A stretch of 64,000 nucleotides of DNA from Plicaturopsis crispa FD-325 SS-3. Taxonomy: Eukaryota; Basidiomycota; Agaricomycetes; Amylocorticiales; Amylocorticiaceae. The position numbers and the translations under genes were made by a program. The notes under the pieces were generated by a model. The model had not been told where the DNA came from, did no database searches, and saw nothing but the letters and a program-made list of their open reading frames with translations. Below, piece after piece: positions 1-21,763 of the stretch. Where the stretch lies: positions 1,654,884 to 1,718,883 of the forward strand of contig KN832558.1 of assembly GCA_000827205.1 (NCBI GenBank), given 5' to 3'. The stretch's first letter is position 1. Every line of letters starts with the position of its first letter.

Positions 1-3000
1 CACCGACGACGGTGCATCATCCCCCGCAGCGCCGGGCAGTAGCATCTCCCGATCTAGATGCCTTGGCGGGGCCCGAGGCAACATATTGTCTGGGAGGAAC
101 GACTGCTGCATGGACGGTCCGTGGTGCATGCTAGACTCGTACCGATGTTGGTTGGGCATCATCCGAGTGTCTGTGTAGCTGTGCATATAACCTGGATATT
201 GATCCTGATATCCTTGAGACGGCCCGCCTGCATTTGCGTATCCGGCGTGAGGACGAGCATCCATGCTGACGTAGCCAGCGTGAGGCGATCGGTGGTCCCT
301 GTCACCATAGGCGGAATACTGTGGTCGAGGGGCCCACTGCTGATCGTTATATCCTGGATGATGAGGGCTCCGAGATGATGGTGGCCGATCATAATACGTG
401 GATGGTGCAGGTGGACCAACATAAGAGCGGGGGTATTGGGGTTCGGAGAATCCCGTCGTATTGCGCACCTCGCGTGCATCGAATTGCGCTGGGCCACCGA
501 GGGGTTGTTGAGCAGGATGCGCGCGTTCAGGCGGTAGTTGTCCGAAGGCAGCATTGGGCGTATTCAATGGCCGAGAGGGTTGCTGTTGCATCGCGGGAGA
601 CGGATGTCCCCATCCAGACTCCTCTTTGACAGCGTAGTCATAGGATTTATCACGAGGACGGGGATCGGAGCCATCGGTGCCAGCCGGACTATGGCCAGGA
701 ATCCTCAGGGGTGGGCGCAACGCAGGCGCCCCATCGCGACGTACTCCATCTTGCCCATTGCTGGTGAAGTCGTAACCACCAGTGCCTTTGCCCGTAGAGG
801 GCGCTGGTGGAAGCGCCCCATCTGCCCGACTGTCTGAAGGTGACGTGTCTGGGAGGGAGGTCAAAGGAGACATAGACCCCAGGCCATGCACACTGCCGCC
901 CGCAATGGGAGCAGTTTTGCCTGAGGTCTTATACGCTGGACGGGGTGCCGGCCGAGCTGCTTGATCGGGCTTTGCTGCTATTGAATCTAATCCTTAGCAT
1001 GCTAAATGCGGCGAGTAGGGAAACAACGTACAAGGCACATTCCGACGTGCGACAGCTGCCGTCGATGGACTCGGAGCTTGACGCTGACGTTTCGCTATGA
1101 TGCACTGTGTCAGGCTCACGAACGTGATAAAAACTTGGAGGAACTCACGCGAAGGGCTGCCAGGTACATCTTCATTCACTGGCAGTGACGGGACCCTGCT
1201 AGTGTTCCTCTTCAGAGGACTAGCATGAACACTGCTAGCACTGACGCTGCTGTTCACGCTGTGCGCTCGGGTTGACTTCTTGGTGGGCCTGGAGTTCTTC
1301 TCCGATGATTTCGACTTGCGCTTTCTATGACCGACAGCGGCATCCTCGTATTCGGAGTCGGACTCAGCATCGTCCTGGAGAGACTCGTCGGATAGAAGTT
1401 GGATTACTTCAGGGGACGGAGGTGGTAGCTTTGTGTCGCGCGTTGTCGGTACCTTCTTGCGCCTGGTCTTGAGTTTTGGCGCAACAGGGAGGACCACTTC
1501 GACACGTTTGCCGGAGGGTTTAGTAGAGGACGCCCCACGGGTTTGCCGAGATGGTGCGTCGTCAACTTGATTGTCGACATCCATTTCGTCGGCAGTATTA
1601 TTGACAGATTCGACTTTTTTCGACTTTCCCTTCGAGGATTTAGGGACGTCGCTGGAGGATATCGTTCCATCTGCGAACATATACCGGCGTGCGACTTTTG
1701 AGCCCGGTGTGGGGCGCACCGTGGTGATAACAGGCTTTTTACTGTCCTGGAGATCTGTACAGCCGTTCAATACCATACCAAAAGAGAATCAAATATGATG
1801 GTATACCTTGTAATGTGCGTTTATCGGAACTCTTCATGAACTGCACCCTTCCGTCTCCAGTGGCCTGAAGGGCAGCGCGGAGGATGCCCTGCTCCGCGAG
1901 GGTGAGCGCTGCGATGCCTTTGTTTGCAGTCTTGCTCGACCCATCAGTCTCCCCAGGGAGTGGGACGTCGGCTGGATAGTTCAAGAGGACCATGCCCTGC
2001 TCGGCAAGGATCCTGCACAGAGACTTCCACGGAAGAAGATTCTTGCTCGGCCATTTGCCGCCTTGATCCACTAAGAAGGCACTATATCAGTTCCACCGTA
2101 CCAATCGTTGAGCTACGCCATACATACTGAACATTTGGCGGATGAGCTCCCTCACGATCTCCAAATCTGACACTTTGGAAGGTGTTTCGGCTCCATGCTC
2201 TGCTGAATTCTCAGCGGTGCCGTCGCTCGTCTCTTCTTTCCCGACCTGATCATGAAACGCCTCCGCTACCACGGACAATGAGACCCTGTTGCTAGATGAA
2301 AATCAGCATAACGGTCAGGGAGCAATGGTGAACAACCAATTACTAGATATGTGATTTGAAATGGCCGATGAGGGTGTCATTGTTTGCGCGGCATCTTTGC
2401 TCGAAAAACTAAGATAGTCGTCAGGATTCCTGAGTAAAATTTCATGCGCGATGAACAAAACATACCCCAGTGGCCCCGCTTGTCTCGTATACCCTGGCCA
2501 GTGAGCCGTCCTGGTTTACAACATTTCCTGCTATCACGATTGCGACGTCCAGTGAGTGCTTGATTGAATTGACGTTGATCTACAAAACCTATCCGTTATT
2601 TGTAGTCACATACAGTGTTTGAAGGATACGTACGATGCGAATCATTTCCTCAACAACCTTATTAAAGTCCCGTGCATGCTTCGCAACTGTTTTGGACGTT
2701 GTGGAGTACAGGAGCATAGTCTCGAAGGTTTCGAGCATCTCCTCCCAGTGTTGCGGATGGTCACGTTTGAACGCATCGTAGCAATTGGAACGTAACTCAA
2801 CATCTAAGAGATAACGTTAAGGATGCGAATTGGAAGGGAACAAGGTATGATATGCTTACTATCGGAGCCCTTGACAAGTTCTGCATTGTCGACACGCTTC
2901 AACTCTTGACCGAGATGTTCAACGAAATATTGTGCGTATATGTTCCAAGGGTTCCTAATGAACCCTGCTCCCCGCTGATGCTTGCGATACCAATCCGCAA

Positions 3001-4453
3001 CTTGAGATGGATCCATGTTGGTATCATCTGAGATGCGCCGGGCAATACGGTCCATTTCTTCAAATCCGGCATCAACGATCGCGCGTGTGGCGTTTGAAGG
3101 CCGACCACGGCGAGGCACAGAACCAGAACCAGACGCGTTTGGACTGGGACTTGAATCGTATGTGTATAGCTCTGGGTCGAAATCGTTTGTTTGAGTACGT
3201 GGAGAGGGTGCGTTGACCGTTGGGGACTTTGTTGGACTATTAGGAGCGTCATGACGAGCAGCTGGAGCTACGGGAGTTGGTGGAATGATATTTGTGACCG
3301 GAGGACGGCTTGGTGCTTGCGCACCGGCGATAGGATATGGCAAGGCTTCTTGAACGGCCGGAGGTATAGACACCACCGGGGGACCAGCCGGAGCGACGGG
3401 GCCGCTGTATGGGTTGTTGTCAGGTATATGGTGCAAATCTTGAAGTAGCGGACGGGGATATGGATGGTTGGTGGACGCATGCAAGGCAGAGTGGTCTGGA
3501 TAGCCCATCCAGCGACCATCCTGTGGATGTTCACGGGTGCGGAGATGGGCATTTGGCGGTGGTAAAGGGGACCGAGAACGCGACGATCTGGTGTGCTGGG
3601 CGTATGACTGTGCATGGTCGTGGTCGTGGATATATGGACTAGCGGCGTGTGACCCAGAAGGGTGGGATAAGGCGGGCTGGTTGTAGGGATGTGGTTGGAA
3701 TTCCGCCTGACGTGTTGAACGCGACAGGTTAGGTTCTCGGTCCTGCATGACAGCGTGTCCGCGATGACCTTGCGGAGCAAGCGACGAGGAGCCCATCTCC
3801 CGTTGCTCATGGCGATCATCTGTTGCCAGATAACTTTGCGGGCCCTGCTCTCGACCAGAATATAAGTGGCGGTCATCAGGGTGTTGACCAGTGTTCAAAC
3901 GCCAATTGTGGTCGTGCTCAGACGGCCCAGCAGGTAGCCCGATAGACTCAAAGCCTGCGTAGTCAAGATATTGCTTGAGCCCAGAATCATTAAATGCGGT
4001 CGCCGATGGAGTGGAGCCGGGAGGGTGTGATTGTCTGACGGTGGCAGGCGCGTCCATGGTGTGACTAGTGGGATGCAGGGGAATGGAGCGTGTAGACGGT
4101 GACGGTGTTTGTAAAGGGGATACCCTTGAGTCAGCCGTGCGTGTTGTTGCCGCGTTAGCGTCAGGTAGAAGCTGGGCGCGACGCTTCAACGCATCACCAA
4201 TGAATCCATCGTCCTTTTTTGAAGGGGTAAGCGACGTCCGCAAGCGGGTAGGGGTCTCAAGGTTGGGTTCTGGTGGGCGAGTACGGCGACCGCCACCCCC
4301 AACCTGTTCAGGATGGCATGAAGAGCGGGTCGGCGAAGGAGAATGGGTATTGAAGCTGCCAGGGATTGGCAATTCCACATTGGCCATTCCCGGCGGCGTT
4401 GTGTACGCTGCCATTGCTTGCTCCGTGCCAGGACTAACTGCGTCTTCTTCCAT
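1..4453 (-). CDS. Uncharacterised large low-complexity protein, C-terminus off the left edge
   Basis: I do not recognise a named family. The start is taken at the ATG at 4453, just after a clear 3' splice site (acgctag), so the 5' UTR probably has an intron. The first coding exon (2860-4453) is rich in P, S, H and Q. It ends in a better ordered stretch of about 80 residues with RRGRPSNATRAI, MDPSQVADWYRKHQ and NPWNIYAQYFVEHL. Further exons near 2630-2803, 2470-2580, 2345-2400, 2087-2290, 1800-2070 and 1115-1776 keep one open frame across short GT-AG introns. The 1-985 part is an open frame without ATG, rich in Y, G, H, P and Q (for example QWAPRPQYSAYGD), and runs past base 1. Lysine/serine-rich basic and acidic patches (KSSKGKSKK, DAESDSEYEDA) suggest a nuclear protein, but that is inference. 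Confidence 0.7.
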
Positions 4454-5711
4454 TTCTAGCGTGTAGTTGTCAGGATACAGGAGAAGTGTGATATGAAAGA
4501 TAGACCACATACTGTGAAATTGGACCGAAGCAATTTTGGTGTCAAATACGGATCGCGTCAAAAAAACGTGCTAAGGTCGAAAGTTAAGGCAAGTTCGGGC
4601 AAATGGATGGGTCGACTCGCACACCTTGATAGGTTTACAATATGCTGTTTTATAGTTTTGGGTGGTCGAGGCGTCAAGAACGAGCTGAAAAGGGATGATG
4701 AGTCAATGTAGAGATACATTGTCACTGCACAAACCTAGTACGTTTTGCAAGATGAAGATACAAGGGAATATATAGCCAGCACTGTGCTGATGAGTACCTG
4801 CAAATAGAATCTCTGGTCAGTCAACGCTAATGGGCGCCACGTATGACTTCAAATACCTGGTGTAGATAGCAAGATATGCAATAAAATAGGGCGATAATAC
4901 GAGATGAGACGTTGAAATTTGTCAGTGTGTGGGTAGCAGAATGGGGGAGAAAGATGGAGGGCAAATTGGGACTCAAACTACTCGTACGGTTGATATAGCC
5001 CCGCCCATCGAAACGACCGTTGGAAGGGCCGCGGTAGCCCACGCATATTGAGACCTTCGAGGCAAGCAATCAAGATGTTAAATGGAAAGATTGAAAAGTT
5101 TAAGCTGCAGCATTGGATGCAGAACGATAGAGGTGAGTGGTAGAGTGCTGAAGCATCCCAAGCATCCCCAGTATCGCTGGCATATGAAGCTTTGTCAGCA
5201 AGTAGGATCCAGCCAATCAGAGATCGAATAAATGTCGCGCATATCTTGTATCTCACCTGCACAGTGCTATCCTTGACCGGAAAAAATAAGAAAAAATGTG
5301 GATATACTCTTGAAACATGCCTGAGTACTCTGATACAATATGCAAGGAATTGTGTCAGGTGTGAATGTTTTATGAAGGTCTGGCAAGAAAAGTACATGAT
5401 TCAACGACTGAACGCCAAAGAATCCTACAGCGTTATTCAGACTCAACCATCGTTTACCAATGGGCCGTCGACCCAAGTACTCTTCCTCCAGCGAGCGTTA
5501 CATGGCTATCCGTCTTCAAAAGGCTGCATATGCACGAAGTGACAAGTCCGTAGCACTACAATCTGACATCGGTCACCACTGATTTCTTATATCTAGAGGC
5601 AAAGCAACTCGCAATGCGCGAAACCGCGCAGCGCGAAGCAATGAACACACCCACAGTGAATTTTCCCCATCCATAACCCGCCTAGCACCTCTGCCCAACT
5701 CTCTGGTCGAG
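4454..5711. other. Divergent intergenic region
   Basis: This 1.26 kb separates two head-to-head genes and probably holds both promoters and the 5' UTR, with at least one intron, of the leftward gene. Several ATG-initiated frames exist here, but none has a recognisable domain or convincing codon use. I see no RNA gene or repeat. Confidence 0.5.
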
Positions 5712-6173
5712 ATGGCATTGCGTCCACTCCCCGAGTCTGCCCCCCTCTTTGTGGAAGCTCTGAGTAGCCCAGATGCTCTCGATGAAGGTGGTCTTGAACA
5801 GTGGGATGATGATCCACCGTATCTGTCACCACCTCCACCCGAGACACCATCCGAGGATAACTACACGGCCCGCCTCGTTGAAGTTATGCATGGGCGGAGG
5901 CTTCGTATCGAGAGGGCCCGTGTTGCAGCTCGTTTGGCAGAGTTTAGCAGAGATGAAGATGGGCTGAGGACGACACTTGCAAGTGAGCTCGAGGAGATGC
6001 TTGTGAAGTGGGAGGCACTAGAGCTTTTCACAGCAGGTGATAGTAGTTGTTCGAGGCACCGTCGGATGGCTGAGCATTTGCTACAGTGGAGAGCAAGGCT
6101 AGTTTATAGTGCGCACCAAGAACTAGAACTACTTGGTAAAAAATGTACGGTTGACAAGAATGTTGGTTCATAG
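5712..6173 (+). CDS. Small intronless hypothetical protein, 153 aa
   Basis: A single open frame with an ATG at 5712 in context GAGATGG and a stop at 6173. I recognise no family. The N-terminal 50 residues are acidic and proline-rich (YLSPPPPETPSEDN). From about residue 55 to 145 the sequence looks helical, with regularly spaced charged and leucine residues (LVEVMHGRRLRIERAR, LASELEEMLVKWEALEL), which suggests a coiled coil or helical bundle. There is no signal peptide or membrane segment. It converges on the KDZ transposon gene, whose stop lies only about 40 bases downstream, so the two transcripts probably overlap at their 3' ends. It could be a host gene or cargo captured beside the transposon; the sequence does not decide. 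Confidence 0.55.
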   Translation: MALRPLPESAPLFVEALSSPDALDEGGLEQWDDDPPYLSPPPPETPSEDNYTARLVEVMHGRRLRIERARVAARLAEFSRDEDGLRTTLASELEEMLVKWEALELFTAGDSSCSRHRRMAEHLLQWRARLVYSAHQELELLGKKCTVDKNVGS

Positions 6174-6215
6174 ATTTGTAGCTAGATTGTACGACCTTTT
6201 TGCGTGATTGTAGAC

Positions 6216-9200
6216 TTACGACGACAATGGTAGAGCAAGAATAGATGACAAAAGGTAACTTCGAAACCAAACCATGTCCGCCTCGAGAAGTCCAGTAGCA
6301 TGGTAGCCACGGAATATTGAGACTATGGAGGCCAGGACCCACAGGCCACAGTCATATCCGTTTGTTTGATGTGCACAGTCCTAGCATTATAGAGAATCCT
6401 CAGCAAGACATATCACGATGAAAAACATAGATGACCAACTGATACAGGATGCGCAGTCCATTCAGTGGCATTCACCGATAGCGGATAGCCGTGGTCATTT
6501 GCAAGTGTAGCCATCCGCTGGACTAATTCCATGATGGTCTATCGCATGTAACATGTAGGCTGTAAGCAACTATCCGTGAAGATAAACAGCACTTACCTCA
6601 ACATCGCTAGACCATGCTCTCCGCCCGCACAGACTATCAAACAGAAATAACTCACTCCGACGAGGATATATTGTACATAGAACCCAGTGTCCTACTGGAG
6701 ATGTACGGTGAATCGGAACTATCCAGATATCTTTGAGCCAGTATGAAGAGCGTCGAATATTCCTCCATAGAACATCATCTGTTGACTTGTCGCGGATGCG
6801 AACAAGTTCAAATGTCGACAGGATCGCACATCGGGAGGCATTTGGAGCACTTGAAAGGGAGTGGAGAAGCCGTGCTCCGCCGTTCATGCAGTTGTCGTTC
6901 AGTCGGGCCGTCGGCGATGCAAGGATCCGGAGGTCGCTTGGCTCAAAGCATGCCCCGCGCGAATTGTTGTCGGCTCCAAGGATCCGTGAAGAGCATAGCT
7001 CAAACGGTGTTGGACTAGCGGGTAGGTGTTGTGAGATATTTTGGAACGTGTCCACGGTCAGCACATCCTGAACATATAACTGAGTACAATGGGATAGTCC
7101 AATCAATATGGGTTTACCGGCAATTTCCATATAATCGATGCAGACAACATGGCGGCGCTCGGAACATGCGGAGGCACCTCGCCATCAGACATGTCATCCT
7201 CGTCGTCAGAGGAGTCAGCCAGATAGTAGTCGAGGACGGTCTCTTCAGGCTCAAGCGGCACAATTTCGCTGTCATCGACATCGACAGGGCCTTGCGATGC
7301 ATCAGGGACAGTGAGCTGCACGGGTGTGATCCAGCGAAGCGGCATTGGAGGCAGACACGCAGACCCATCTCCGCAAAGGGTATCTGCAATAGCTACAGAA
7401 TTGGTGACGTGATGCTGAAAGCGAAGGAGGGATACAAATGGATTAGTCCAACGACTTCTGAGGAGTAGAAGTTGCTCGCGGCGTTGGCCAAGTAGAATAG
7501 CGAGTGATGAATCTATGTTCACAAGGTCAGCCAATCCTAGTGCGTAAAGACGGCACTAAGACGACATACTTGACTGTCTACGCAACGCAAGCTCAACAGC
7601 GGCAAGCTCTCGTCCAAACCATCTGCATAGATTGTCAGCTTCCAAACCAAGGCGGTGACGCTCTTCGAGGCATCGATCCAGCTTGAGCATTGCTCGTATC
7701 CCATCACGGACATCAGCATCTTCTAGCCATCGCGGTGTCAGCCCCTCTGACGGGGCAATCCACACATCCTCCATCAAGTTTGAGCCATCGCGAAGGTCGG
7801 CCAGCTTAGTCGGCAGAGGTTGCGGAAGAGGGATGGACCATTCGGGCTGGTGGAGTTCTTCAAGCTGTTGACAATATACATTGAATTTGCGGATTGCAGT
7901 CATCAAAGCTGGCTGCCTCTTAGCGATCGCCTTTCGTGTATGCTGGTGTAGTTTTGTGCCTGTTATACTTGTGAGAGAGAATGGGATACAATTTGATTTA
8001 CGACTCACCAAGTGGCTGCTGCTTGCCGCCGATAGCCTGGTCTAGTTTGTCCCACTCAAAAAAACTCCCTATCGCCCGTTTACGAATATTAATCTTGAGG
8101 TCGCGAGCCATTAAAAGTATCCTCACAAACTCGAGATCGACATCCTGTAATTCTGGGAAGGACGTGTGGATGTTCAGCGACGCATAAAGTGATTCAACCT
8201 TTGATTTGAGTCGGTCGTGGGTGCGTTCAAGTCCAGCCATGACGTCTTGCGTGTCGTGAGATGCCGGACCCTTGGATATGATGGTTTTCGTGGCGTGTAT
8301 TGCCTTTTCAGATGTATCCAGGTCCCCTTGAAGGACAAGCACGGTGTCGAGCTCCTTCTTGAGACGTTGTGGGGCATCTTCAAATTGTTTCAAGGTTACT
8401 ATGGTCGCAATAATGGATTTGAGACACTCACGGGCACGCAAGGAGAGTTGTGACGCTTTTTGAAGAGCCCATTGTTCGCGTAGATCTGGTAAAGAGACTC
8501 CGCAGGCATCGATAGTCTTCTGTGCCTTAGCGCCTTGGACGTTGATGCCCCGGCCAAGTCGACGGAGAATCCAATCGCCTAGATCGTCCCGCAGTTCAAG
8601 GCCTATTGAGGACGCTTGGCGATCGAGAAGCCATATTCGTCGGGAGCGCTGTATAGGTGTGAGTTCTGTAGGCAAACGATGCAGGCGCACGACTTACACC
8701 AGATGAACGGGTGATGCCTATGAGTTTGCGAAGGCGTGACCACAATCGCTCAACGCCCTCACCATCCGTCAGTCCAAGACCTTTGCGCAGTCGCGGGTTG
8801 TATATGAGTTGGCAAGACCACTGATGCCCGTACGCATGCATCGCACTGGTCACAAACACGAGACGACTAGTAATTGCATCTGAAAGAATGTCGTACTATG
8901 ATGATATCAGTTACATTATCAATGATTGATAATGCTGGGGCTTACAAGGCAAAGACTTCGATCCAGAACGCATCCTACATCGTATAGACAAACAACTGTT
9001 GCCTGGGGAGGGAGGAGCGCGTAAAGATGTTCCAGCAGTGCGACGGAGTACTTTTGTTGCTCGCCAGGGGTGTCAATGTTCGCAAAGAAGAGGGGGATGT
9101 CATGACGGCAAACAAGGGCCATCCATCCACTATCGTCGAATGCATCCATGTTTGCCTTTTGCTTGTTACCATTGGCGGCAGCATGAGACTCTTCGCAATC

Positions 9201-10742
9201 GTCTACAGCCTCATCAGGAACCTGCGGAGAATACGCCCGGGGGGTCTTCTTTCGTGCCGCGTCAATGCGCTGCCCGACTGCATCCACTTGCGCTTTCGGA
9301 ATAACATACTGTGGGTCATAGAAGTGTGGGCTGTCGCCCGCAGCACGGCGATGTCGGTGGTGAAAGTTGCCATCTGTAGCGACATGTACATCACCGCCCC
9401 TAAAAAGTATACGTTTAGCTGATGATACGATGCGCAAGCTGGTGAAGAACTCACACGTCAAAAGAGTGCCCAAATGCGAGCCCTCCAAAGCAAGCAGGGC
9501 ATCGCTGCTGAAGTATTCGAGCGCATTGACCGGGTGTGGAAGACGGCGGAATCTTGGATTGGGGAGATGCTGTAGACTCGGGTTGGGCAAGGGATGTCGG
9601 GGTGGCATTGCGCAGAGGTGGAAGCTCCGGTGAAAGCATTGGGTCGGGCTCCAGGTCATGTCCGTGAGTCTTTGAGCGGGCATCTGCAATCTCTGTGTCG
9701 CAATCTCGGATCGCAGCATCTATGCGCTCTTGGACACGGAGTTGCAGTATGTCATGCCATTGTATAGCGCTCCCTAAACTTCTGCGGAAGGGATCACTGA
9801 TTCGTTCTCCCTGGGTTTGATATTAGTTTCCTCCCCTTCGAAGACAATATGGTGTATTTACCTTTTTGTTGATCGCGTGAAAGCCTCTCCGTGTATAGAA
9901 TGAATGTAATGCTGACGCCATGGCATTCACTGCATCGCAGGAGCGCTCAAATAAGGCGTGGTAGAAGTCGAGGAGCTCAATGGAGACAGCCATGCGAGGC
10001 TGAGAGGGAGACGTGGGGAAGAGGCCGTGGCGTATGAGCACTTGGTGAGTTGTGTCGCACTGGCAGCCATGCACATCGATAGTCTTGAAATCTATCCTGC
10101 AATCAATAAGTGGGCTAGACAGAACGTGCACGACAACTCACGGTCAAAGTATAGGCAGAGTATGTCGGAAGATTTGACTTCCATGCAACCCCGTAAGCAT
10201 TCTCCGTAAATATGGTCCCCAACGGGAACGACAGCCTTGCTCATGGTTCGGTTTGTATAGTGGAGGAGAGACTCGACTAAGGATGGTGTTAGCGATTTCC
10301 AACTAGCGTATAGTCGGTTGGCTTCCGCGTCAGGTAGAATACGCCTTTTCTGGGTTTTCTGGGGGGTTTCTTCGACGGTTTCGATGTGAGCAGGCGAAGA
10401 CTCTTGGTCGGGCTGCACACCAGGTGCATTGTCGTCTACCCATTCGTCGTCAACATCCATGGGGTGCTCTGCCTCTTCTTCACGTAGCGCCTGGAGCCAT
10501 GGAGCAACGGCAGGTGCATGGTCATCAGTGGTGTCGTGGCTTTGAGCCTGGGCGTCTTTTTCATCCTGATGTCTCAGTTCTTCGAGCCGCTCTAGCAGAC
10601 GCCGCCGTTTAGCATCATGGCCAGGTATTTCGAACTTTATGCTGGTCTTTTTCTTGTCACGAGGCCTGCGAGGACTGGCAAAGTGCTTCCCTAGTCCAAA
10701 GGATACCGGGAGGTCACCGCGACTGCGTGGAGGCGATGACAT
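6216..10742 (-). CDS. KDZ (Kyakuja-Dileera-Zisupton) transposase with N-terminal CxC cluster and C-terminal Ulp1 protease
   Basis: This is the probable mobility protein of a KDZ DNA transposon. After a basic, disordered N-terminus comes the cysteine cluster known from fungal KDZ proteins (GECLRGC, then DVHGCQCDTT), followed by the helical VSIELLDFYHALFERSC segment. The DDE-type core follows: ATDGNF (Asp at 9372-9374), NIDTPGEQQ (Asp at 9072-9074) and TDGEGVERLWSR (Glu at 8758-8760). The C-terminal part is a Ulp1-like cysteine peptidase with the histidine in GHWVL (6687-6689), the aspartate in LFLFDSL and the cysteine in QTNGYDCGLWVL (6348-6350). About ten short introns separate the exons. The first ATG in frame is at 10742; the frame stays open slightly upstream from a non-ATG codon, so another first exon is possible. 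No stop or frameshift was found in the exons I followed, so it may be active. Confidence 0.85.
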
Positions 10743-11300
10743 GGACTTAGCAGCTGGGGCAGAGACAGGGAAAAAAGACACAGTTGGTATTCGAAGGAAG
10801 TGTACCGATACATTGATAGCATTTTAGAGCCATTGTAAGCATAGAGTTCGTCTGTCGCTGGTCTGTGGGATGGATATTCGAGATGATTGTTGGCGAGTGC
10901 ATCCACCTCAACATGAGAGTGCTGCAAGTCGGTGGTGGTGAACATTGAGTCGGTAGATGCCTTTAGATGCTTGTAGATGCATAAGTACAGGACACGTATG
11001 TCAGTAGAATGAGCGACAGCGTAGGAGTGCACGCAGGCGCCGTTCTGGTCTCATTTTTGCCATCATCTTAGTCAGCGGCAGAAATGAAACCATTCGGCTG
11101 AGTTTGAACTTTGAACAAGGATCCATCGATATCCATCCATGGCCAAGGATCAGGATGCATTGTGGCGCATCGTACCAATCCTCAGAATATCTAGTTCTAT
11201 TTATATGTGGGAGCATCGAGGATGTAGGCCTCGGAGAGCCTTTTCACTCAACATAAGAACCCCGTCTCAAAGGATAAGAAAGAAGCAAGAAGGTCATGCC
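10743..11300. other. KDZ upstream flank; no gene seen
   Basis: This stretch lies between the first ATG of the KDZ gene and the broken 3' end of the retrotransposon. It should hold the KDZ promoter and one transposon terminus, but I could not find a matching inverted repeat by eye near 6.2 kb. Short frames here have no recognisable content. Confidence 0.4.
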
Positions 11301-12141
11301 TTAGGTGAAGCACCTAGTGTCCGATTGAGCAGCGCGATCGAGTAATGCGATTGAGTCGGGAAGTCCATAAGCTGCGATCGCATCGTAGAAGCCAGCAGGA
11401 GCCAAGTAGTCAAAACCCTTCATCTGGTCACGTTTGAGCGCGTAAACCGGTTGATGATGACGATGAGCCCAGCATTTGAGTCCGGCTAGAAAGCTCATGA
11501 GGTCGCGGGTCTGAACGCCTTGTTGTGTCGCGACCTGCGTTTCGGGGATTATTCCGAGGCGAGTCGCATATGGGTTGAGCGAATAGTTGAGCCATGACAT
11601 CGGCGAGTTGGCGAGGAAATTGGAAAGGAATAGTCCGCGCCAGTTCGAGAGGTCGGTGCGGATACCACGCTTATGAATCATGATAATGGTCATGTCCTTG
11701 AGATCACCAGGAAAATGTGCGTGCATCGCAACATAATTGTGGAGATCGAGAACTAGGAGCAAGGCATTATCTGAAAGCGATTTGACGCACCATTTCTCCC
11801 AGCCATCTGGCCCTGGGGACGGTCGTTGATTTCCGCGGCGCAGCATTGCTCGGAAATCGTCAACGGCGGCAGGCCTCGGCCAGACAAATGGGTCGTCCTG
11901 GACCTTGTCCCGAATCGCATTGACAGATGGAGTGGATAGCCATGGCTTCGGAATCGCAGGAGGAGGATCGTGGTGATAGAGTTTCGAGAAATACTCTCGC
12001 GTTGTCTCTTTCACCTCGTCTGGGTCTGTCGCCAGGTGATCTGATTGATCCAGTCGATTCACAGCCAGGGGAAGAGCAATAAACGTGCTCTTGTCCATAA
12101 GCCGTTTAGTAGACTGTCCGCGCAACATCTGCAAAAAATTT
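11301..12141 (-). pseudogene. Truncated LINE reverse transcriptase fragment
   Basis: This is the continuation of the LINE frame on the far side of the insertion, beginning around FLQMLRGQSTKRLM. It carries the fingers region of a non-LTR reverse transcriptase: PSPGPDGWEKW, then the IIMIHKRG and NWRGLFLSNF motifs. The palm motif A region is RDQMKGFDYL, with its aspartate. The frame stops after LLDRAAQSDTRCFT, before the expected YADD motif. The frame differs from the upstream ORF because the inserted length is not a multiple of three. Confidence 0.75.
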
Positions 12142-12577
12142 AGGTTGCTGAGAGCGTCTGACAACTCTCTCAGCGCTCTCAGGCTCTCCGCAACCTAACG
12201 CGATCTGAGAGGTGCTGACAGACGCTCTCAGAGCTCTCAGCATCTCTCAGACGCCACGTGCCCGCATCTGATCGCAAGCAAGACTATGTTCGCGTTTGAC
12301 AACCTTTCCTACTACGAAACAGCATGTAGCTTGTTTTGTGGGCAAGCTGTCCCTCCGATTTTTCTTCCTGTAGCGTGTAGGCATAGCTATACCATGGTGC
12401 TTTACCTTGAGATTATTTACACAGCGAGAGTCCAATTATTGAAGCAACAGGAACATTATTACTGAATCCAATCGAGCCCCCCGCGCACGCTCGGCCCGAG
12501 GTTCTCAGATGTTCTCAGAAATGTGCCGAAACTGACAACTGCTGAGAGCGCTGAGACACCTGAGAGTTACGCGAGCA
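12142..12577. mobile_element. Short non-autonomous element with CTCTCAG/CTGAGAG-rich ends, inserted in the LINE
   Basis: About 435 bases interrupt the LINE reading frame. Both ends are packed with the heptamer CTCTCAG or its complement: 12148-12154, 12167-12173, 12176-12182 and several more up to 12250 on the left, and near 12541-12565 on the right. The 15-mer TCTCAGCGCTCTCAG-like block occurs at both ends in inverted orientation. The left end can also fold on itself, with AGGTTGC at 12142 pairing with GCAACCT near 12190. There is no coding capacity. Clustered subterminal repeats and a small size suggest a MITE, perhaps hAT-like. No target duplication could be defined, so the edges are approximate. 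Confidence 0.55.
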
Positions 12578-15500
12578 TTTTCCCTTTTTGCAGATGAACG
12601 AAGAGGAAATAAGAAACTGGTTACGTTTGCGCGCTCGTGCGTTGATTTGTGCGAGTTTTGCCGCAAACAGTTCCTTGCGCAGCATCTTCTGTCGTTGGTG
12701 CAAGTAGTCAATAAGAGAGACACAGTCCGAGAGAGACGTATCTTCTTGGTACTGCTTCGCATAGTCGACATATGCGCACTGGGAAGCGAAAGAGACACGT
12801 ATGTCCTGGTGCCCGATCGACTTCGCAATACGAATCGCACCGCTGACGTTGCGAACCGAGGCAATGAGGCCGCTAATCTTGGGCGTTAAGATGGATTTGT
12901 GAGACTTCGTGAAGCGCTTATTCCTCCCAAACGAGTCCTCCGCTGACGACACGATGATATGTGTGAGCATGTTGTAGCGCGAGAGGAAGGAGGCGTCGTC
13001 GATAACGGGGTGTCTCAGGCTAGGCTCCGCACGGATTTTCTTGTCCACGTTCTCACGGAACACGTCGAAGCGAGCTTTCTCGGCCTTGCATGGGTACTTG
13101 ATGCGTGGCTCAGTGGTCCATTGACTTGGCGCATTGGCAGGCTCTGTCATGGGTAACGCTGTCCGAGAAGTAGCTGGTGCCTGGTAGTTTAAACGGGCAA
13201 CAATTGCGCGATGGTCCGTGAAAGGGATCCAGTCATTGTAGCCGTCTGCGACCCCGATTTCGCTGTCCAAGACTGTTGCCTTCGATGTGACGACGCGGTC
13301 AATAATGCTGCCGCCAGTAGAAGCTCCGCGAGCGCGACAAGTCCAGCTACGAGAGCGATCCCTATCGGCATCAAGAGACCATAGATCAAGCGCATTAGCA
13401 TGTTCAAGAAACTGGAGGAATTGGGAGCGCGCATCGAGGCCACCCGACGAGCGTTCGAGGGCAGATACAGTAGCGTTGAGGTCCCCGGATAGCGTCCATG
13501 AAGTAGTGGTTGCGCGACATAACTGAGTGACGTCAGACCAAAACGACCTTGTTTCGTTGGAGTCTCCGGGGTTCCACGGGGCGTAGGCACCGATGAAGCG
13601 ATGGCGAAACCCTTGGCCGCTAGAGGACGTTAGAACCACATCAATGACAATGATTCTCCCCCGCAGCGAGGCCTTTGTTGTTACGACACGCTGCGATATC
13701 TGCAAGTCTTTCCGGATGCCGACAACTACACCCCACTTGAAAAAGCGGCTGTTTGTCTGTCGTACACCAGGCTCTTCAAATATGTTGTATTCGCAGTTAG
13801 GCAAAGTAGAACTCAGCTTCGAGTCTGTCTTCGTCTCCGTAAGCACGAAAACATGAGGTTTTCTTGCGTTTATAGCGGTGTTGACGTGGTGGACAGTACC
13901 CGGGCTGATAAGTCCATTTGCGTTCAAGGCGTAGACAGAAACAGGTGCGGCATGCGCTTGAGTTGGCAACGCGGAGGTTAGGTTGGCAAAGAAAAGAAAG
14001 CACAGAGCGATCATCAAGATTGATTTTGAGTTCAGTGACGGCGGGGGCTTGGATATATGTTGTACAAGACGGACACATCGAGGTCTAGAAAAGGGACAAG
14101 AAAACACGCGACTCGTGATACTGCCAACCGCCTCTCTTATATTTCCGACTACGAGGTAACAGGAGCACCCAGACTTGCGGTGGGGCTTGTGGTACTCGTG
14201 TTGCATCGTGGGCGTCAACGAGCGGGCTGGCGAAGCATCACGAGTCGCGCTTAGCGAGCTCGATGGGAACGAGCAAAACTGAAGGCTCACATTGTCTACT
14301 GCACCATCAGGGGAACGCATAAGCTGGTCGTGATCGATGACCTTGTTTCTGCTCGCATCGGCGGGCCTGCTAGTAGACGTGCGAACGCGCTTCGCTGGCG
14401 TCTGGCCTTCGAATTGAGACTGATCATCTCTTTCACCGCTGCTGTGCTTATGGCGTGAGGTGGGAGTAGGCGATGTGGGATCGTGAGTGGCTGCGAGAGC
14501 TTTTCCGAATAAGCCCATGGGAGGAGCGGGGATTTGCGGACGAGGCAACACGTAAGTGCTTGCGTCGCGAGAGGGTTCGCAGGAGGGAGACGCAGGCGTA
14601 GAAGTGGTTGGGGACATGTGAGCGGGGGTATCCGTGAATCCAGAGGCAATGGGAGGAGCGGTGGTCGAGGGGACGGCGTTTGCAATAGTGCGACGTGGTG
14701 GTGCGCCGACGATGTCTCCTGTGGTGCCTCCGAGCATGGCGGAAAAGCCCGTGTCCGATGCGCGAACTTCGAGACGCAACTTTGCCTCCTGATCTCTGAG
14801 CAATGCAATCTGCTCCTTGCATTCCCGGACTTCTTCCGCGGTATCGGCGTCCTTCAGGTCCCTCCGTGCAGCCATCAGGTCCATCGACACATGGTTGAGC
14901 ATCGAGTTCAGCTGCTGGGTGTTGTTTAGTACAATGAGGGCTCTGTGGTTGCGTGCCTCGGCTTCCTGGATGCCTTCGATTGACGATACCATTTTAGTCA
15001 TCGCCGTCTCGATGTTACCTACTCGCGCGGTGGTTGCGGCAACGTCGCGTCGCAGCTCCTTCAGAGACTCCGTGATACCGTTGAGGCCCTTTGCGAGCTC
15101 CTGACCACCCGTGTTGATCATCCTGTAGTTATCTTTCCTGTATATCCCTTTGCTGTTACATGTCCACAGCAGCTGCGGAGGCGTGAGATTGGCCCAGCGT
15201 TTTCCGAATGCGTCCTCGAAAGCCGTTCCCGAGCGCAGAACACGAGCGGTTGACTGCCAGTCGCACATATGGAAGATGAGCGCGTCGGGATCGCCCGGTG
15301 GGAATCTGTACGTGACGATGTGCTGGCTGTCGGGGGGAAAGAGCGAGGCGATCCAGCAGAGAATGGGGGAGTCGATGCCGTCGTAAGAATTAATGCCGTT
15401 GATGATGATCTCGAAGGCATTGCAGATTTCGATTTGGCGGCCGCGTGCGACGATGAGGGGAGAGTCTGAGACTGAGCTGATCTTCAGCTCGCGCTGATCA

Positions 15501-16168
15501 CAGATTTGATCGACATGGGATGGGTTGGCCATGGACAGGACAGCGCCACCCGCATTGACGTATGAGTCCGCGACGTGGAGGCCCTTGCCGTCGAGGTAGG
15601 AACAGATTTTCTTCACTTTGTCCAGGATTGCCGGAGAGATTTCCACGCGTCTGCCTTGAGCCGAGGCGGGTAATTCGTCAGGTTTGAACAAGTTCGTGAA
15701 ACGCACCCAGCTGCGCTTGTCCTTTCCGGTAGTGGTCGGGGACCATGCTACTTCCCACGTTGGCTGGTCATTCCGCAATGCGTGAAGCCAGACCTCCAGC
15801 AGATCACAGCGTGGTTCTTCTTCGTCTGGGGAAGGCGAGCAAGGGAGGCGAACGTAACACGAGGTGGATGTGGGAGCTGATGTGCCGCGGTCGCGGGAGC
15901 TGTAGGGTCTGACCTCGACTGGTATGACTGAGAGATCTTTGATCGAGGCCGAGAGCCGGGTTATTACACCTTCGACAGTAGGCACGGGGTCTGCGAGAGT
16001 CGTTTTGGATGGGTCATATACGCCGCGGATGATGAGCTCCATGCCTGATGGGACAACAATTTCCGAGCCGTCAGCTGCGGTCGTCGTCGGAGCAGGAGAG
16101 AATATGGGAAGTAACGTAGTCCGTGCTCGGAATGGAGGGGGTTTTGGGGTGGATGGGGTAGAGTTCAT
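12578..16168 (-). pseudogene. LINE ORF: coiled-coil ORF1 region fused to APE-type endonuclease
   Basis: One open frame of about 1200 codons starts at an ATG at 16168 and runs into the inserted element. Residues 1-380 are an unassigned region. About 380-470 form a predicted coiled coil (VRECKEQIALLRDQEAKLRL), followed by a P/S/T-rich linker. A hydrophobic stretch near residues 710-730 (LMIALCFLFFANLTSALP) precedes the endonuclease at about 745-1000. The endonuclease shows the family landmarks ALNANGL, LTETKT, WTLSGDLNATVS, GGSIIDRVVTS and FTDHRAIVARL, so the metal-binding and catalytic residues look intact. No CCHC zinc knuckle was seen. The frame leaves LINE sequence at FICKKGKC and continues for some 16 residues into the insertion before a stop. 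Confidence 0.8.
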
Positions 16169-17479
16169 TTTGGGTAGGTATTGAACAACAAGCAGACGGT
16201 GGAAGATTCAAGCAAGGCAAGGAAAAAACAAGATATCAGGCTGGTTAACGGTTAACGGTAAGTATTAGACGGGGAGTTATGGGAGAGTATAGAGCGTATA
16301 TTCGTGCAAAAATGGAATGGAGTGGAGTGAGGTGAAAACAAGGAGCAAGACGCGTTTTTAACGAAGATTTGAGCCACGAATTAGAAAAAGGTGTTCAAGT
16401 GGGGGTTTTAGTGGGCTGGGAGTTGGATTTTTCAGAGTTTGAGTGCAGGTTTAGAAGTAGGAACGTGAGTAAAACGCAAGGATGTGGGTATGGGGCGCGT
16501 CGGTGGTGGTGGTTGTTGTTGTTATGGGTAGTTCATGAAAAGCTGCATAACCCGCGTGAACACCATGAACCGATTTCCGTGCCGGATTCAGTCACGAGGC
16601 GCAGCCGAGCGCCCGTCGCGCCTCGCGTCGCTGTCCTTTCATGCGCCCAGATGCCCACCCTCCAAGTCGTTTCAGGCCCGCCGGCCTGATGGACTCGGAT
16701 ACGGGACCGCTATGCTAACGTACGTACCTAGGGAGAGGTGAGTGCACCGAAAGGATCATTGACGACACCTCGACATGACATGCATGGTTCGGTTCTCCAC
16801 CGTTAGCGCTCCGCGCTCTTGACGCCCGCCGCCGCCCACTGTGACAGCGTCGGTGACCATAACCAGCATGTCTAGGGCTGCAGCTGCAGCACCATGTCAA
16901 TCTGCGACGCCGACACCCGTGGTCTCCGCACCCGACCCTGCGCAATCCATCGTTCTCTGCAATCTGCCTCTGAAGCTCTGTGAAGAAGGGGAAACTTGAA
17001 GGGAGAACGCGGTTGGGAGTGTCAGGTGGCGTGGGAAAATGCTTTGACAGTGTCCCAAAAGGGACAAAGGGTGCTACTACGAAACCTGAAAACTTATTAC
17101 ATAAGTCTCCAGGAACTTATTACATAAGTCTCCAGGAACAAGTTACCGCTACTTACTTACCACTCCCAAGACTGGCAGGTCTTACCGTGCAAAGAACGCA
17201 TGTGAGTCTTTTCCTCTTTGCGCCAATGCTGACAAGGCTTCTAGGTCATTTCGACGGGTCTCAGTGGCGTTCGTTATGTCCTCCTGACCAGGACTTCCCA
17301 ACATGACAGCACGGCGGTGGTGCGTAGGACGTCAGCGGCTGAGGTGCGCATATATACAGAAAATGTATACGCCTCGTACTGTCCGTCGTTTTCTTCCGCA
17401 CCAGGTAGCCTTATTTTTGAGTTTGTCGGTTCACAACTCACCAAATGATCCACCGAACATGTAGACGCAATTCTAAATC
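16169..17479. other. Intergenic region upstream of LINE remnant and F-box gene
   Basis: The part next to 16168 would be the LINE 5' untranslated end. It contains simple-sequence patches, such as a GGTGGTGGTTGTTGTTGTT stretch near 16504. A TATATA box sits at 17351-17356, about 125 bases before the F-box start codon. I see no gene. Confidence 0.45.
17091..17136. repeat. Perfect 23 bp tandem duplication
   Basis: Two adjacent identical 23-base units, each starting AACTTATTACATAAG and ending CTCCAGG, occupy 17091-17113 and 17114-17136. Each unit contains the near-palindrome CTTATTACATAAG. It lies in non-coding sequence upstream of the F-box gene. Confidence 0.8.
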
Positions 17480-18766
17480 ATGGACGTCGAGAGAATCGGA
17501 CCTCCGAGTAGTGGGCGGCACCATTCCTTCATCGTGCAAGGCCAGCATGACTCTCCACATTCGGCAACCGACATATCGTCCCTACCAGTTGAAATCCTTT
17601 GTTCGATTTTCAAGAGCGCACGCGCTACGACGTGGAAGGCCACGGAGACGTCACCGCTACCCTCACAGGTCCTGTTGACACACGTGTCGCGTCACTGGCG
17701 CGCTGTCGCTATCAATATGCCCACTCTCTGGACGGTTATTGATGTCCATACGTCTTGGCATGCCCGGGGGCTCCTAGACGCGCACATTACTCGCTCACGG
17801 CCGCATCTACTCTATATATCCTTGCGATGGGACCACATTGACGAGAATATTGGGGGCTGCAGTGACAGATGGATCGTTTTTCGCGGCTCATTCAGCGGAT
17901 GGTCTCGTTTGGGTCTCTTTGTCGACCACGTTCTGGCCCCGAACCTCGAGGAACTGTATCTGTCCACTCCTTATCCGTCCTCCAGCCGTGCAACACTTTT
18001 GGCACCTCGTCTATCATGTTTGAATTTGACAGGCGTGTCGCTCTCAATAATTCGCCCTCCCCTACCCGCTATACGCACTTGTGTGATCAACACCGGTGAT
18101 CATCACGACCCAATCGACCTCGCCCTGCTACGAATCTTGTTGTCGTCCTCGTCACAGCTGACCGAGTTGTCGCTGGGACACGAAGCTCTTCCTCTCGAAT
18201 CGGAACCTATCCACCTTCCTTCTCTTAGGTCGTTTCAAATTTCTGCTTATGATAGACAAGACGTCCTCTCCATGTGTCGAGCGCTATACGTACCAGCACT
18301 AGAAACCTTCAAACTTCTTGGCTTTGACCAAGGCCTCTTGGAAGCCTTCCTCGATTTCTGCCACAGCACCGAGCACGTCCATGATAGGTATCCAAATTTG
18401 CAGTCCTTTTTCCTGCTAAACACCCCCCTCATCCCCGAACTCATGATCACTCTGCCTTTCATCACAAGCGTCGTTCTGGGCAACGCTGACTGCGAATGCT
18501 TCGAATGCCTCTGCGTCGACCGGCAACTACCCGCCTACCCATCCCCCTTGTGGCCTCAATTGCGCTCGCTCACGGCTAGACACGTCCGTGTACCATTTGA
18601 AAACGACCTTCGTGGCATCGTGTCGTCGCGTATCGCCGCAGGCTGCCCTCTATCTAGCGTGGCTGTGAGCTCCAGCGGTTCGTGGCGGCTAGATCCCAGA
18701 CTGCGATCCTGGCTTCAAGAACGCGTTCCGTCGGTGGATATTCACCACGTCCACTCCGAAGATTGA
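17480..18766 (+). CDS. F-box protein, 428 aa, intronless
   Basis: An F-box (about residues 30-80) opens with ISSLPVEILCSIFKSA and includes the typical tail VSRHWRAVAINMPTLWTVI. It is followed by a leucine-rich C-terminal region with irregular LRR-like units (LEELYLS, LTELSLGHEALPL, LRSFQISAYD). Such proteins are substrate receptors of SCF ubiquitin ligases: the F-box binds Skp1 and the repeats bind a target. Agaricomycetes carry many lineage-specific copies of this layout, and the substrate cannot be read from sequence. The start at 17480 is the first ATG of the frame; a TATATA box lies about 125 bases upstream. There is no sign of degradation. Confidence 0.85.
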   Translation: MDVERIGPPSSGRHHSFIVQGQHDSPHSATDISSLPVEILCSIFKSARATTWKATETSPLPSQVLLTHVSRHWRAVAINMPTLWTVIDVHTSWHARGLLDAHITRSRPHLLYISLRWDHIDENIGGCSDRWIVFRGSFSGWSRLGLFVDHVLAPNLEELYLSTPYPSSSRATLLAPRLSCLNLTGVSLSIIRPPLPAIRTCVINTGDHHDPIDLALLRILLSSSSQLTELSLGHEALPLESEPIHLPSLRSFQISAYDRQDVLSMCRALYVPALETFKLLGFDQGLLEAFLDFCHSTEHVHDRYPNLQSFFLLNTPLIPELMITLPFITSVVLGNADCECFECLCVDRQLPAYPSPLWPQLRSLTARHVRVPFENDLRGIVSSRIAAGCPLSSVAVSSSGSWRLDPRLRSWLQERVPSVDIHHVHSED

Positions 18767-19425
18767 AGATCCACCTACGCATAAGACGCTAGCCCATGCT
18801 ATCATGACAGATTCGCTTACCAAAGTAGGCTTTGGTTGCTGTCCCCGGAATCGAGACTGAGCTCCTCTTTCAGATCCTACATCTTACTCCCGTTGTCTCT
18901 TTAGCCTCGCTGCCTCCTTACAGTTCTATGGACACAATTGTATCAATGTTAAAGAATGCCACCTCTTTAGGTACATCTTATAACGGCGCTACAGATTACC
19001 TGGACATTGCACTGAGCAGGACCTGTTGAGATATCTTACTTCGTCTGTGGTACTCCCGACGGAAAGCCAGGGGCTATCAATTTCGGAATCTATGTCACGA
19101 GGGCTATGCCAGGGTCAGCGCGTTCTATGGGACTTTCGGGGGGCATGGTTACCGCGTATATGCGCGTCCTAAGTGCCCACGATCGTAACGCTCAAGAGGT
19201 TTTCCGACTACGTGCAGCGAAGAAGCTCTTAAGCTGAAAGGATTTGGCGTACTGTGAGTCTATGACTACAAATGACTATGTTACTTATCAGTTATATAGA
19301 AGCCTTGAACACATCAGCCCACTTTCGCGGACGTTCAGGGCAATTCTTGCATTCCGTCGGATGGTCCGGACTATTTCAAGGCGCTACCTCTCTGCTCGAT
19401 CCTGGTCCTTCACTACAACTTCAAG
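18767..19425. other. Intergenic region between F-box and P450 genes
   Basis: Only short frames without recognisable domains occur here. The region probably contains the F-box 3' UTR and the P450 promoter. I see no repeat or RNA gene. Confidence 0.4.
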
Positions 19426-21763
19426 ATGGCCGTCTCAGTTCTTCAGGCTGCCGTCATCGCCGCCTTGTCGTGGGCACTTTGGCGTACGTTCCAGAGGATA
19501 AGCAGGAAGTCTACGCTTGATAACATCCCTGGCCCACCCTCGGAATCGTTTGCTACAGGTATCTCCACGTGAAACTAGCGTAGTCCCATTGATGTACTGA
19601 CATGGAGTAGGAAATCTGAAGCAGTTCTTCAGTGCTGGTTCTTGGCCGTTCCACCTTGATTTATTCGCGAAATTTGGCAAGGTGGTCAAAATCAACGCCT
19701 TGTTTGGTGTGAGTCTCTCACGAACTGGCAGTTGTATCTTTGTATTGACCCTCTCTTGTAGGACAAGCAGCTGTATGTTTATGATCCCCTCGCTATGTAC
19801 CACATTGTGGTCAAGGATCAAAACATATTCGAGGAAACATCGGTTGCCATTCAGTACGCATGCTTACTTTCCCTCCCCCGACAAGTCCTAGACGTCATCT
19901 TTTTCAGAGTGAATCAAGTCTTCTTCGGAAAAGGTCTTCTTGGTAGTCTTGGTGCGTATCCAATTACCAACTCGCACCGCATACATTCAAACGCCTATGC
20001 CCGTATTTCAGGAGAGTCACACCGCAGGCAGCGCAAGCTCCTCAACCCGGTGTTTTCCATCAAGCACATGCGCCATATGATGCCCATATTTTATGATATA
20101 TGCGAGCAGGTATGCCCTTTATTTCTATGACAGACCGTCTCTCAACCCGAAGTACGATTTATCAGATGCGGGATGTTATAAAATCTCAGCTCGTCGACTC
20201 GGATGGGCCTCAGGAGCTCAACATGCTCGACTACCTGTCCCGCACTGCCCTTGAGCTCATCGGACAGGCGGGCCTTGGATACTCCTTCAATGCATTGAAT
20301 ATGGAGAAGGAGAATAATTTTGCTACGGCAGCAAAACAATTTCAGTACGCCGCCCTCAACCAGACCCTCCCGGAAACTGATTTGCAGAAACTGATTTTTT
20401 ATCTAGGCCTTCCGTGATGAGAATTTCCATCGCATTGCAGTGTCTCCCGTTCTTTGTGAAGTTGGGCCCAGCGTGGTTTCGACGATTCTTAGTCAACCTC
20501 ATACCATCAAAAGATGTGCGACAAGTCCGCGATATGGTCGATGTAATTGAAAAATCGTCTGTCGACATCTTCGAGGGCAAAAAGCGCGCGCTTGCGGAGG
20601 GCAAGGAGTCAGTGCTCCAGCAGGTGGGCCAAGGCAGAGACATCATGAGCATATTGCGTAGGGAGACTGCTTGGCCTTGTATCAGTTGTCGAACGCTCAC
20701 ACATCATTTTATAGTCAAGGCCAACATGGAAGCTGACGAAGCTGAACGTATTTCCGACGAGGAGCTCATAGGCCAGATGTCGTGCGTCAAATAATCCTAG
20801 CTTGAAACTTGAAGCGCTAGCGTTACTTACCGATATAACCACAGCACTCTGCTATTCGCCGCCTTTGATACAACCTCATATGCCCTAGCGCGTATCCTCC
20901 ACTTACTGGCAGAGCATCCGGAGGTCCAAGAAAAGCTACGGAATGAAATCACTGAGGCGCGTCGGGAGAAGGGTAATCTAGACTACGATGAGCTCGTTGG
21001 TCTTCCATATCTCGAAGCCGTGTGTCGTGAGACATTGCGCGTGTAAGTGCATTACAGTGCTCAAGTCACGGATACCAACGCTAACGGCTAGTACAGTCAC
21101 GCACCTGTTCCTTTCTTGTCTAGAACGTTAGTCGCACCGAGTGTGCCCTCGATTATATGCTCACCAAGTCACATCGTATAGCACGCGCAAGGATATTGTC
21201 CTACCGTTGTCACAGCCGATTAAAGGCGTAGACGGGTCTGACATCCACAGCATCCCGCTGGCCAATAACACCAACGTCATCATGGGTATCCTCGCTATCA
21301 ACCGCGACCCGTCGATCTGGGGCCCGGATGCGGCAGAATGGAAGCCTGAGCGATGGCTTGCGCCCCTCCCGGACAGCGTCGCGGACGCCCATGTTCCCGG
21401 CGTATATGCCAACATGATGACGTTCCTTGCTGGATCGCGGGCATGCATGTTCGTGCTCCGTACCTAGTATTCAAAGAGCGATCCATCTGACTATCCAACG
21501 TTTTATTCTGCAGTGGTTTCAAGTTTTCGCAACTGGAGATGAGTGAGTCTACATGCGTTCCCTTCGCGCGACATTGATGTTCACACCTTTATCTGGTCGT
21601 TTCAGAGGTGGTTTTGTCTTTGCTTCTCGAATCGTTCCGGTTTGCTCCTGGGACAGAGATTGCGTGGAATATGGGCGGAATTCAGTGGCCCGGGCCTAAG
21701 GTCAACGCGACTCAAAAGCCTGCATTGCCATTGAAAGTATCACTGGTCAATGCCAACGTTTAA
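19426..21763 (+). CDS. Cytochrome P450 monooxygenase
   Basis: A haem-thiolate oxygenase of the ER membrane, about 540 aa over roughly a dozen exons. The N-terminus MAVSVLQAAVIAALSWALW is a membrane anchor followed by the proline hinge NIPGPPSESF. Exon 1 is 19426-19558 and exon 2 starts at 19611. Later landmarks in order are the I helix FAAFDTTSYALAR, the K-helix ExxR in EAVCRETLR, the meander WKPERWL, and the haem loop FLAGSRAC-(intron)-IGFKFSQLEM, whose cysteine codon lies just before an intron near 21445. Spliced frames are open throughout and the stop is at 21761-21763, so it looks functional. The I-helix motif has AFDTTS in place of the usual AGxDTT. The substrate is unknown; the neighbours do not form an obvious metabolite cluster. 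Confidence 0.9.

Follow-up and report, generated by a model that had tools for sequence, protein, structure and literature searches.

Ulp1-type protease domains carried by transposons are known from Ginger1 elements (PMC2836005) and from plant Mutator-like elements (PMC13317346), no tested function being given for them in the available parts of these papers. Ginger1 transposases are of the cut-and-paste type and carry Ulp1 or OTU at the C-terminus; the authors of that study suggest that ubiquitin or SUMO plays a role in transposition or repair (PMC2836005, available part). In plants, Ulp1-bearing VANC genes have been linked to hypomethylation among related elements, and what the Ulp1 part does there is unknown according to the portion of the text at hand (PMC13317346). 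Kyakuja elements, in turn, are described in the accessible part of the respective study as having no terminal inverted repeats (TIRs), 7-bp target site duplications (TSDs), and CA..TG ends (PMC12730594). Here, we describe a gene predicted to fuse a KDZ (Kyakuja–Dileera–Zisupton) transposase with a C-terminal Ulp1-type protease in a stretch of 64,000 nucleotides from the basidiomycete Plicaturopsis crispa FD-325 SS-3 (assembly GCA_000827205.1, contig KN832558.1, positions 1,654,884–1,718,883 of the forward strand; hereafter, the window, whose own numbering is used below). We read the locus as probably a two-gene DNA transposon of the KDZ type, old and low in copy number, or a retired descendant of one, carrying a probable SUMO-type isopeptidase in cis.

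According to the initial annotation of this DNA, a link of KDZ transposons with Ulp1 domains and TET/JBP genes in fungi is already known. Our literature search found no paper joining a KDZ transposase with Ulp1, Zisupton with Ulp1, or Peptidase C48 with a basidiomycete transposase; as the 2014 PNAS study on KDZ lay outside this search, we do not claim the fusion as unreported. The available passages on Zisupton and on proteases do not join the two either, and the main text of the Kyakuja study contains no occurrence of Ulp1, protease or SUMO (PMC12730594).

Gene structure and predicted domains

The fusion gene occupies positions 6216–10742 of the reverse strand, from an ATG at 10742 to a TAA ending at 6216. 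Its splice model was built from the sequence and from paralogue comparison only. The first version comprised 11 exons encoding 1330 amino acids (aa), with ten introns of 49–65 nt, all GT..AG, and no internal stops. Comparison with the paralogues at C17 and C27 elsewhere in the genome added a 54-nt intron on the same strand at 8378–8431 (GTGAGT..GAAG), the splicing of which yields 12 exons (10742–10142, 10091–9862, 9810–9455, 9399–8946, 8895–8698, 8648–8432, 8377–8009, 7959–7570, 7512–7118, 7067–6597, 6538–6446, and 6380–6216) and a protein of 1312 aa. If this intron is retained, the frame stays open with 18 extra codons, and retention in the window copy is possible, because its acceptor is GAAG there, as compared with CCCAG in C17 and GTAG in C27. 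The acceptor of intron 1 was placed at the second AG, five bases past the first one, a choice supported by the position of the C17 acceptor at the same aligned base. Thus, by this model, the KDZ and Ulp1 parts form one gene in one frame. The initial annotation had proposed a single gene with an uninterrupted spliced frame in this interval, and the exons are indeed open throughout in both versions of the model. A short cysteine-rich frame upstream (MALKCYQC..., about 10833–10747) was set aside by eye, having no counterpart in the C17 alignment.

Pfam families detected in the 1330-aa model follow the order CxC1/CxC2, KDZ, Peptidase_C48, and since all of them exceed the curated cut-offs, the matches are not due to chance. 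The scores are 172.6 bits for KDZ (PF18758; E 1.3e-50, gathering score 26.6) and 46.9 bits for Peptidase_C48 (PF02902; E 3.9e-12, cut-off 20.7), while CxC1 (E 7.3e-7, 29.7 bits vs. 26.9) and CxC2, which overlaps it (E 2.3e-6, 28.2 bits vs. 27), pass by modest margins. On the reverse strand, the CxC1/CxC2 cysteine (zinc) cluster (PF18802 and PF18803, placed with the exon table) spans 9886–10175, intron included (residues about 190–269), the RNase-H-like KDZ DDE core spans 8613–9389, introns included (residues 400–625), and the Ulp1 domain, delimited by PF02902 and by alignments with Protein Data Bank (PDB) sequences, spans 6252–6890, introns included (residues about 1130–1301). The hidden Markov model search therefore agrees with the earlier proposal that the three parts belong to one protein.

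The genome searched (33.2 Mb, 49 contigs) contains 43 KDZ matches grouped into 31 places, and 18 copies from these places were aligned to assign the DDE residues. Residue D405 (codon 9374–9372) is matched by Asp in all nine sister-clade rows covering that position, and both D536 (8981–8979), within the YDVGC motif, and E596 (8751–8749) are kept in 18 copies out of 18. At the position of D505 (9074–9072), nine of ten sister-clade copies have Thr and one has Asn, and E593 (8760–8758) is kept in 17 out of 18 copies, with Ala in the remaining one. Because D405, D536, and E596 are invariant where D505 and E593 vary, we assign the triad to the former three residues, and it is complete. The initial annotation had likewise considered the triad complete and had started it from D405 (its Asp 9372), whereas its second and third members, Asp 9072 (D505) and Glu 8758 (E593), are probably wrong according to the alignment. 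In an AlphaFold model of the KDZ core from a sister copy at C36, the order β1-Asp, β4-Asp, helix-Glu is consistent with D405–D536–E596; with a mean predicted local distance difference test of 43, this model is too poor for a fold search and adds little to the assignment.

In the predicted protease, H1197 (6689–6687), D1214 (6638–6636), Q1263 (6368–6366), and C1269 (6350–6348) line up with the catalytic set of the Ulp1-like protease 6dg4 (E 2.6e-7; PDB sequence match). Weaker PDB matches are yeast Ulp1 1euv (E 0.0063) and SENP1 (0.034 and weaker, down to 0.6). The His, Asp, and Cys named previously are thus present, and alignment with Ulp1 and SENP1 adds the Gln. A candidate SUMO-interacting motif in the linker at residue 1022 (7264–7253, reverse strand; IVPL with acidic flanks, LVPL in C17) was rejected as not above the shuffled expectation, matches of this kind numbering two per real protein vs. 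about one per shuffled protein.

Relatives in the genome and constraint on the protease

The closest relative of the fusion gene at the DNA level is the copy at C17:37286–41885 (73% identity), besides which only two short matches were found. This copy has the same exon structure and encodes 1314 aa without an internal stop; the two proteins are identical at 1048 of 1305 positions (80.3%), and the aligned introns are 38–63% identical. The Nei–Gojobori ratio of nonsynonymous to synonymous divergence (dN/dS) between them is 0.084 for the whole protein, with 0.07 for the N-terminus, 0.036 for KDZ, 0.077 for residues 626–1070, 0.097 for Ulp1, and 0.32 for the loose stretch 300–399, these ratios being rough because dS is near saturation: it equals 1.1–1.5 in KDZ, the middle part, and Ulp1 (1.1–2.8 across the non-saturated parts), and is saturated in the CxC part and in the linker 1070–1125, where the proportion of nonsynonymous differences (pN) is 0.04 and 0.25, respectively. 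As the C17 copy is uninterrupted and dN/dS is low in both KDZ and Ulp1, the comparison indicates that the protease has been kept by purifying selection together with the transposase. The Ulp1 part has been constrained somewhat less than the transposase core, and it probably has some role for the element.

With C27 as the outgroup, whose residues were taken from local alignments that may extend slightly into introns, 24 replacements are derived in the window copy and 36 in C17, with 900 sites being the same and 131 ambiguous (1091 sites); these counts give no indication that constraint on the window copy has been relaxed. The C27 copy itself is decayed, having Phe at the catalytic Cys position and, as seen by eye, a stop in the linker and roughly 1.3 kb extra before the protease. 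The observed/expected CpG ratio is 0.93 in the element vs. 1.04 in the whole window; compared with the C17 copy, CpG is lower (0.93 vs. 1.10) and TpG/CpA is higher (1.21 vs. 1.13), a shift that may be read as a mild sign of past methylation.

Ulp1 is attached to the transposase in all three members of this clade (the window, C17, and the decayed C27). A profile made from the window and C17 Ulp1 domains found none at the ten sister-clade loci (six-frame translations, loci of 9.5–9.9 kb; best E 0.2), 18 other KDZ places lying outside this search; as controls, C27, not included in the profile, scored 6.4e-15, and C17, included in it, 4.9e-107. A genome-wide Pfam C48 scan gave eight matches, two of them at the KDZ loci of this clade (C17 and C27); having missed the split domain of the window itself, it is no sensitive negative. 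Host-type Ulp motifs were noted by eye at C2 and C11.

The sister KDZ family includes the copies at C6, C36 (two), C38, C17:662k, C37, C22, C42, C21, and C24:83k (L001–L008, L014, L015, L035–L042), with core proteins 80–94% identical to that of the C36:14k copy, and eight out of ten of its copies lie either on contigs shorter than 52 kb or less than 50 kb from the end of a contig. Weak KDZ matches at C17:306041 and C24:173956 lie within long open frames (744 and 746 aa) and possibly represent another lineage; 8 kb from the former, a 989-aa frame contains a C48 match. No KDZ relatives were found in viral contigs.

Directly downstream, the fusion gene is adjoined by a small convergent gene on the forward strand (5460–6173; exons 5460–5545 and 5597–6173), encoding a 220-aa protein whose N-terminus is basic (MGRRPKY...) and which matches no Pfam family. 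It is identical to its C17 counterpart in 151 of 222 alignment columns (dN/dS 0.196). A genome search with this gene at E up to 10 returned, apart from the copies in the window and at C17, only a single match at chance level, and the C27 locus has a relative in the same place (tblastn 1.2e-8, residues 24–206, 25% identity; profile 4e-5), frameshifted near its start as judged by eye; the same profile found nothing at the ten sister loci (best E 0.13). The gene accompanies three loci of the clade out of three, and the pair therefore constitutes a two-gene unit. Its product, with the basic N-terminus, is a probable accessory DNA-binding protein. The minimal extent of the element with both genes, delimited by homology to C17 (blastn, 72.7% over 5490 columns), is 5413–10794, the true ends not having been found.

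Next to the element, remains of a non-long-terminal-repeat retrotransposon were observed at 11301–16207 on the reverse strand (a 1230-aa frame, an endonuclease match below the cut-off, and, by eye, a separate reverse transcriptase-like frame). Its presumed tail, 11197–11307, has an 87% match at C17 near the C17 relative of the KDZ–Ulp1 element.

Mobility, domestication, and the role of the protease

If the locus is an old transposon or its retired descendant, the CxC/KDZ part would bind the element ends or the target chromatin, and the KDZ core would perform DDE cut-and-paste chemistry. The Ulp1 part, in turn, would remove SUMO or a related modifier locally, be it from the transposase, from silencing or chromatin factors, or from repair factors at the break. 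Removal of SUMO could then protect the element against silencing or turnover that depends on SUMO, or ease repair. We infer this SUMO-related role from the families to which the domains belong.

A number of observations weigh against this interpretation. The genome contains no near-identical second copy of the fusion-gene DNA, although identical copies could have been collapsed in the assembly. No inverted repeats of at least 20 nt occur in positions 1–20000 of the window, nor do short ones between the ends of the window element (10 nt exact, 12 with one mismatch, 14 with two); C17 has end-to-end inverted repeats, one at 12 nt and one at 14 nt, which is no more than in some shuffles. A scan for CA..TG ends with 7-bp TSDs yielded two candidate pairs in the window, for which shuffling predicts 0.46, as well as a single pair in C17 and none in C27; the two window pairs were not used as evidence of a TSD, and neither a TSD clearly beyond chance nor 8-bp pairs without the motif in a narrower range were found. 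Two splice sites are weak, namely, the GAAG acceptor of intron 6 in the fusion gene and the GTCCGT donor of the convergent gene, both being weaker than in the C17 copy. Because of the absence of TIRs and of a TSD clearly beyond chance, the single copy, and these splice sites, mobility is unproven. The low dN/dS between the two copies, rough as it is, reflects past constraint and is no proof of present activity. Finally, a Rad60-SLD search for the SUMO gene gave eight regions, of which the four read by eye are three ubiquitin genes and one other ubiquitin-like protein, so that a SUMO gene was not resolved among these four. Tandem Rad60-SLD matches were seen at C3:132813–133978 and C2:1220681–1221582, the C3 array reading as polyubiquitin with introns.

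Domestication is a serious rival: the fusion gene and its convergent neighbour might be an immobile host gene pair kept for a host function, e.g., chromatin or SUMO regulation. The occurrence of each of the two intact paralogues as a single, strongly constrained copy, the lack of TIRs and of a TSD clearly beyond chance, and the absence of a replacement excess on the window branch would all fit. We nevertheless consider it unlikely, as the fully kept DDE residues are directly explained by selection for transposition, the copies reside at different loci with the third one broken, as expected of mobile elements, and Kyakuja elements have no TIRs anyway, according to the available part of that study (PMC12730594).

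Also unlikely is the suggestion that the Ulp1 part is a protease for ubiquitin or NEDD8, or serves the autoprocessing of the fusion protein, rather than being a SUMO protease. The C48/CE-clan enzymes differ in modifier specificity, which speaks for this alternative; on the other side, the best PDB matches are the Ulp1-like SUMO protease (2.6e-7) and then Ulp1 and SENP1 (only E 0.006–0.6).

The initial annotation had also suggested a live source element, that is, an autonomous transposon still mobile. The uninterrupted frame, the complete catalytic residues, the lack of excess replacements on the window branch, and the CpG ratio close to that of the window, arguing against heavy methylation-driven decay, are in its favour. 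However, the count of near-identical copies gave one copy with the next relative at 73%, the ends are not identifiable, no TIRs or TSD clearly beyond chance were seen, both weak splice sites are inferior to their C17 equivalents, and the CpG and TpG/CpA values differ from those of C17 in the direction of past methylation, making this suggestion improbable and unsupported by our results.

That two separate genes merely appear fused is hardly believable: the linker 1070–1125 is loosely constrained and the gene model comes from sequence and paralogue comparison, but the coding region continues in one frame from KDZ into Ulp1 without an intergenic gap, exon boundaries and phases match in both copies, and constrained coding over residues 626–1070 joins the domains, C17 sharing the exon structure, which makes two transcripts unlikely.

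Comparison with known systems

KDZ proteins with CxC domains (PF18758, PF18802, PF18803), of which the genome holds many other copies, share with the fusion the CxC-then-KDZ order and the DDE residues; the element considered here differs in the added C-terminal Ulp1, not found in the ten sister-clade loci of the genome. Ginger1 resembles it in combining a transposase and a C-terminal Ulp1 protease in the same protein, and differs, as far as the available part of the description goes, in its Gypsy-integrase-like DDE core, in the TIRs present in most listed families, and in its table of animal hosts (PMC2836005). In the fusion protein, the Pfam search, run up to E 1, detected KDZ but no integrase family, that is, no Ginger1-type core. 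The plant Mutator-like elements (Kaonashi/KIU, Vandal VANC) likewise bear an Ulp1 domain within a gene associated with evading silencing, but this is a VANC-type accessory gene (KIU) and the elements belong to another superfamily, as described in the accessible part of the paper (PMC13317346).

The TET/JBP-bearing Kyakuja elements of Agaricomycetes, judging from the part of the study at hand, also are KDZ elements with an enzyme possibly countering host silencing, the enzyme there being a dioxygenase acting on DNA, as opposed to the predicted isopeptidase here; the 7-bp TSDs and CA..TG ends reported for them are not established for our element (PMC12730594). An exon-by-exon search found no Tet_JBP in the window; the genome has six matches, five of them over the cut-off, and the KDZ copies located 2–8 kb from three Tet_JBP matches (C28, C31, C1) are placed far from this clade in the KDZ tree. 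One genome here holds a broken copy of the fusion besides two that are intact and diverged, a natural comparison for asking whether deSUMOylation in fungi belongs to transposition itself or to evasion of silencing. Tentatively, and with more doubt than confidence, we suggest that one clade of KDZ elements may have made a cis-acting deSUMOylating enzyme an obligatory component of its transposase, maintained by selection along with the DDE core; such an enzyme could be the protein-modification counterpart of the demethylating TET/JBP enzymes borne by transposons.

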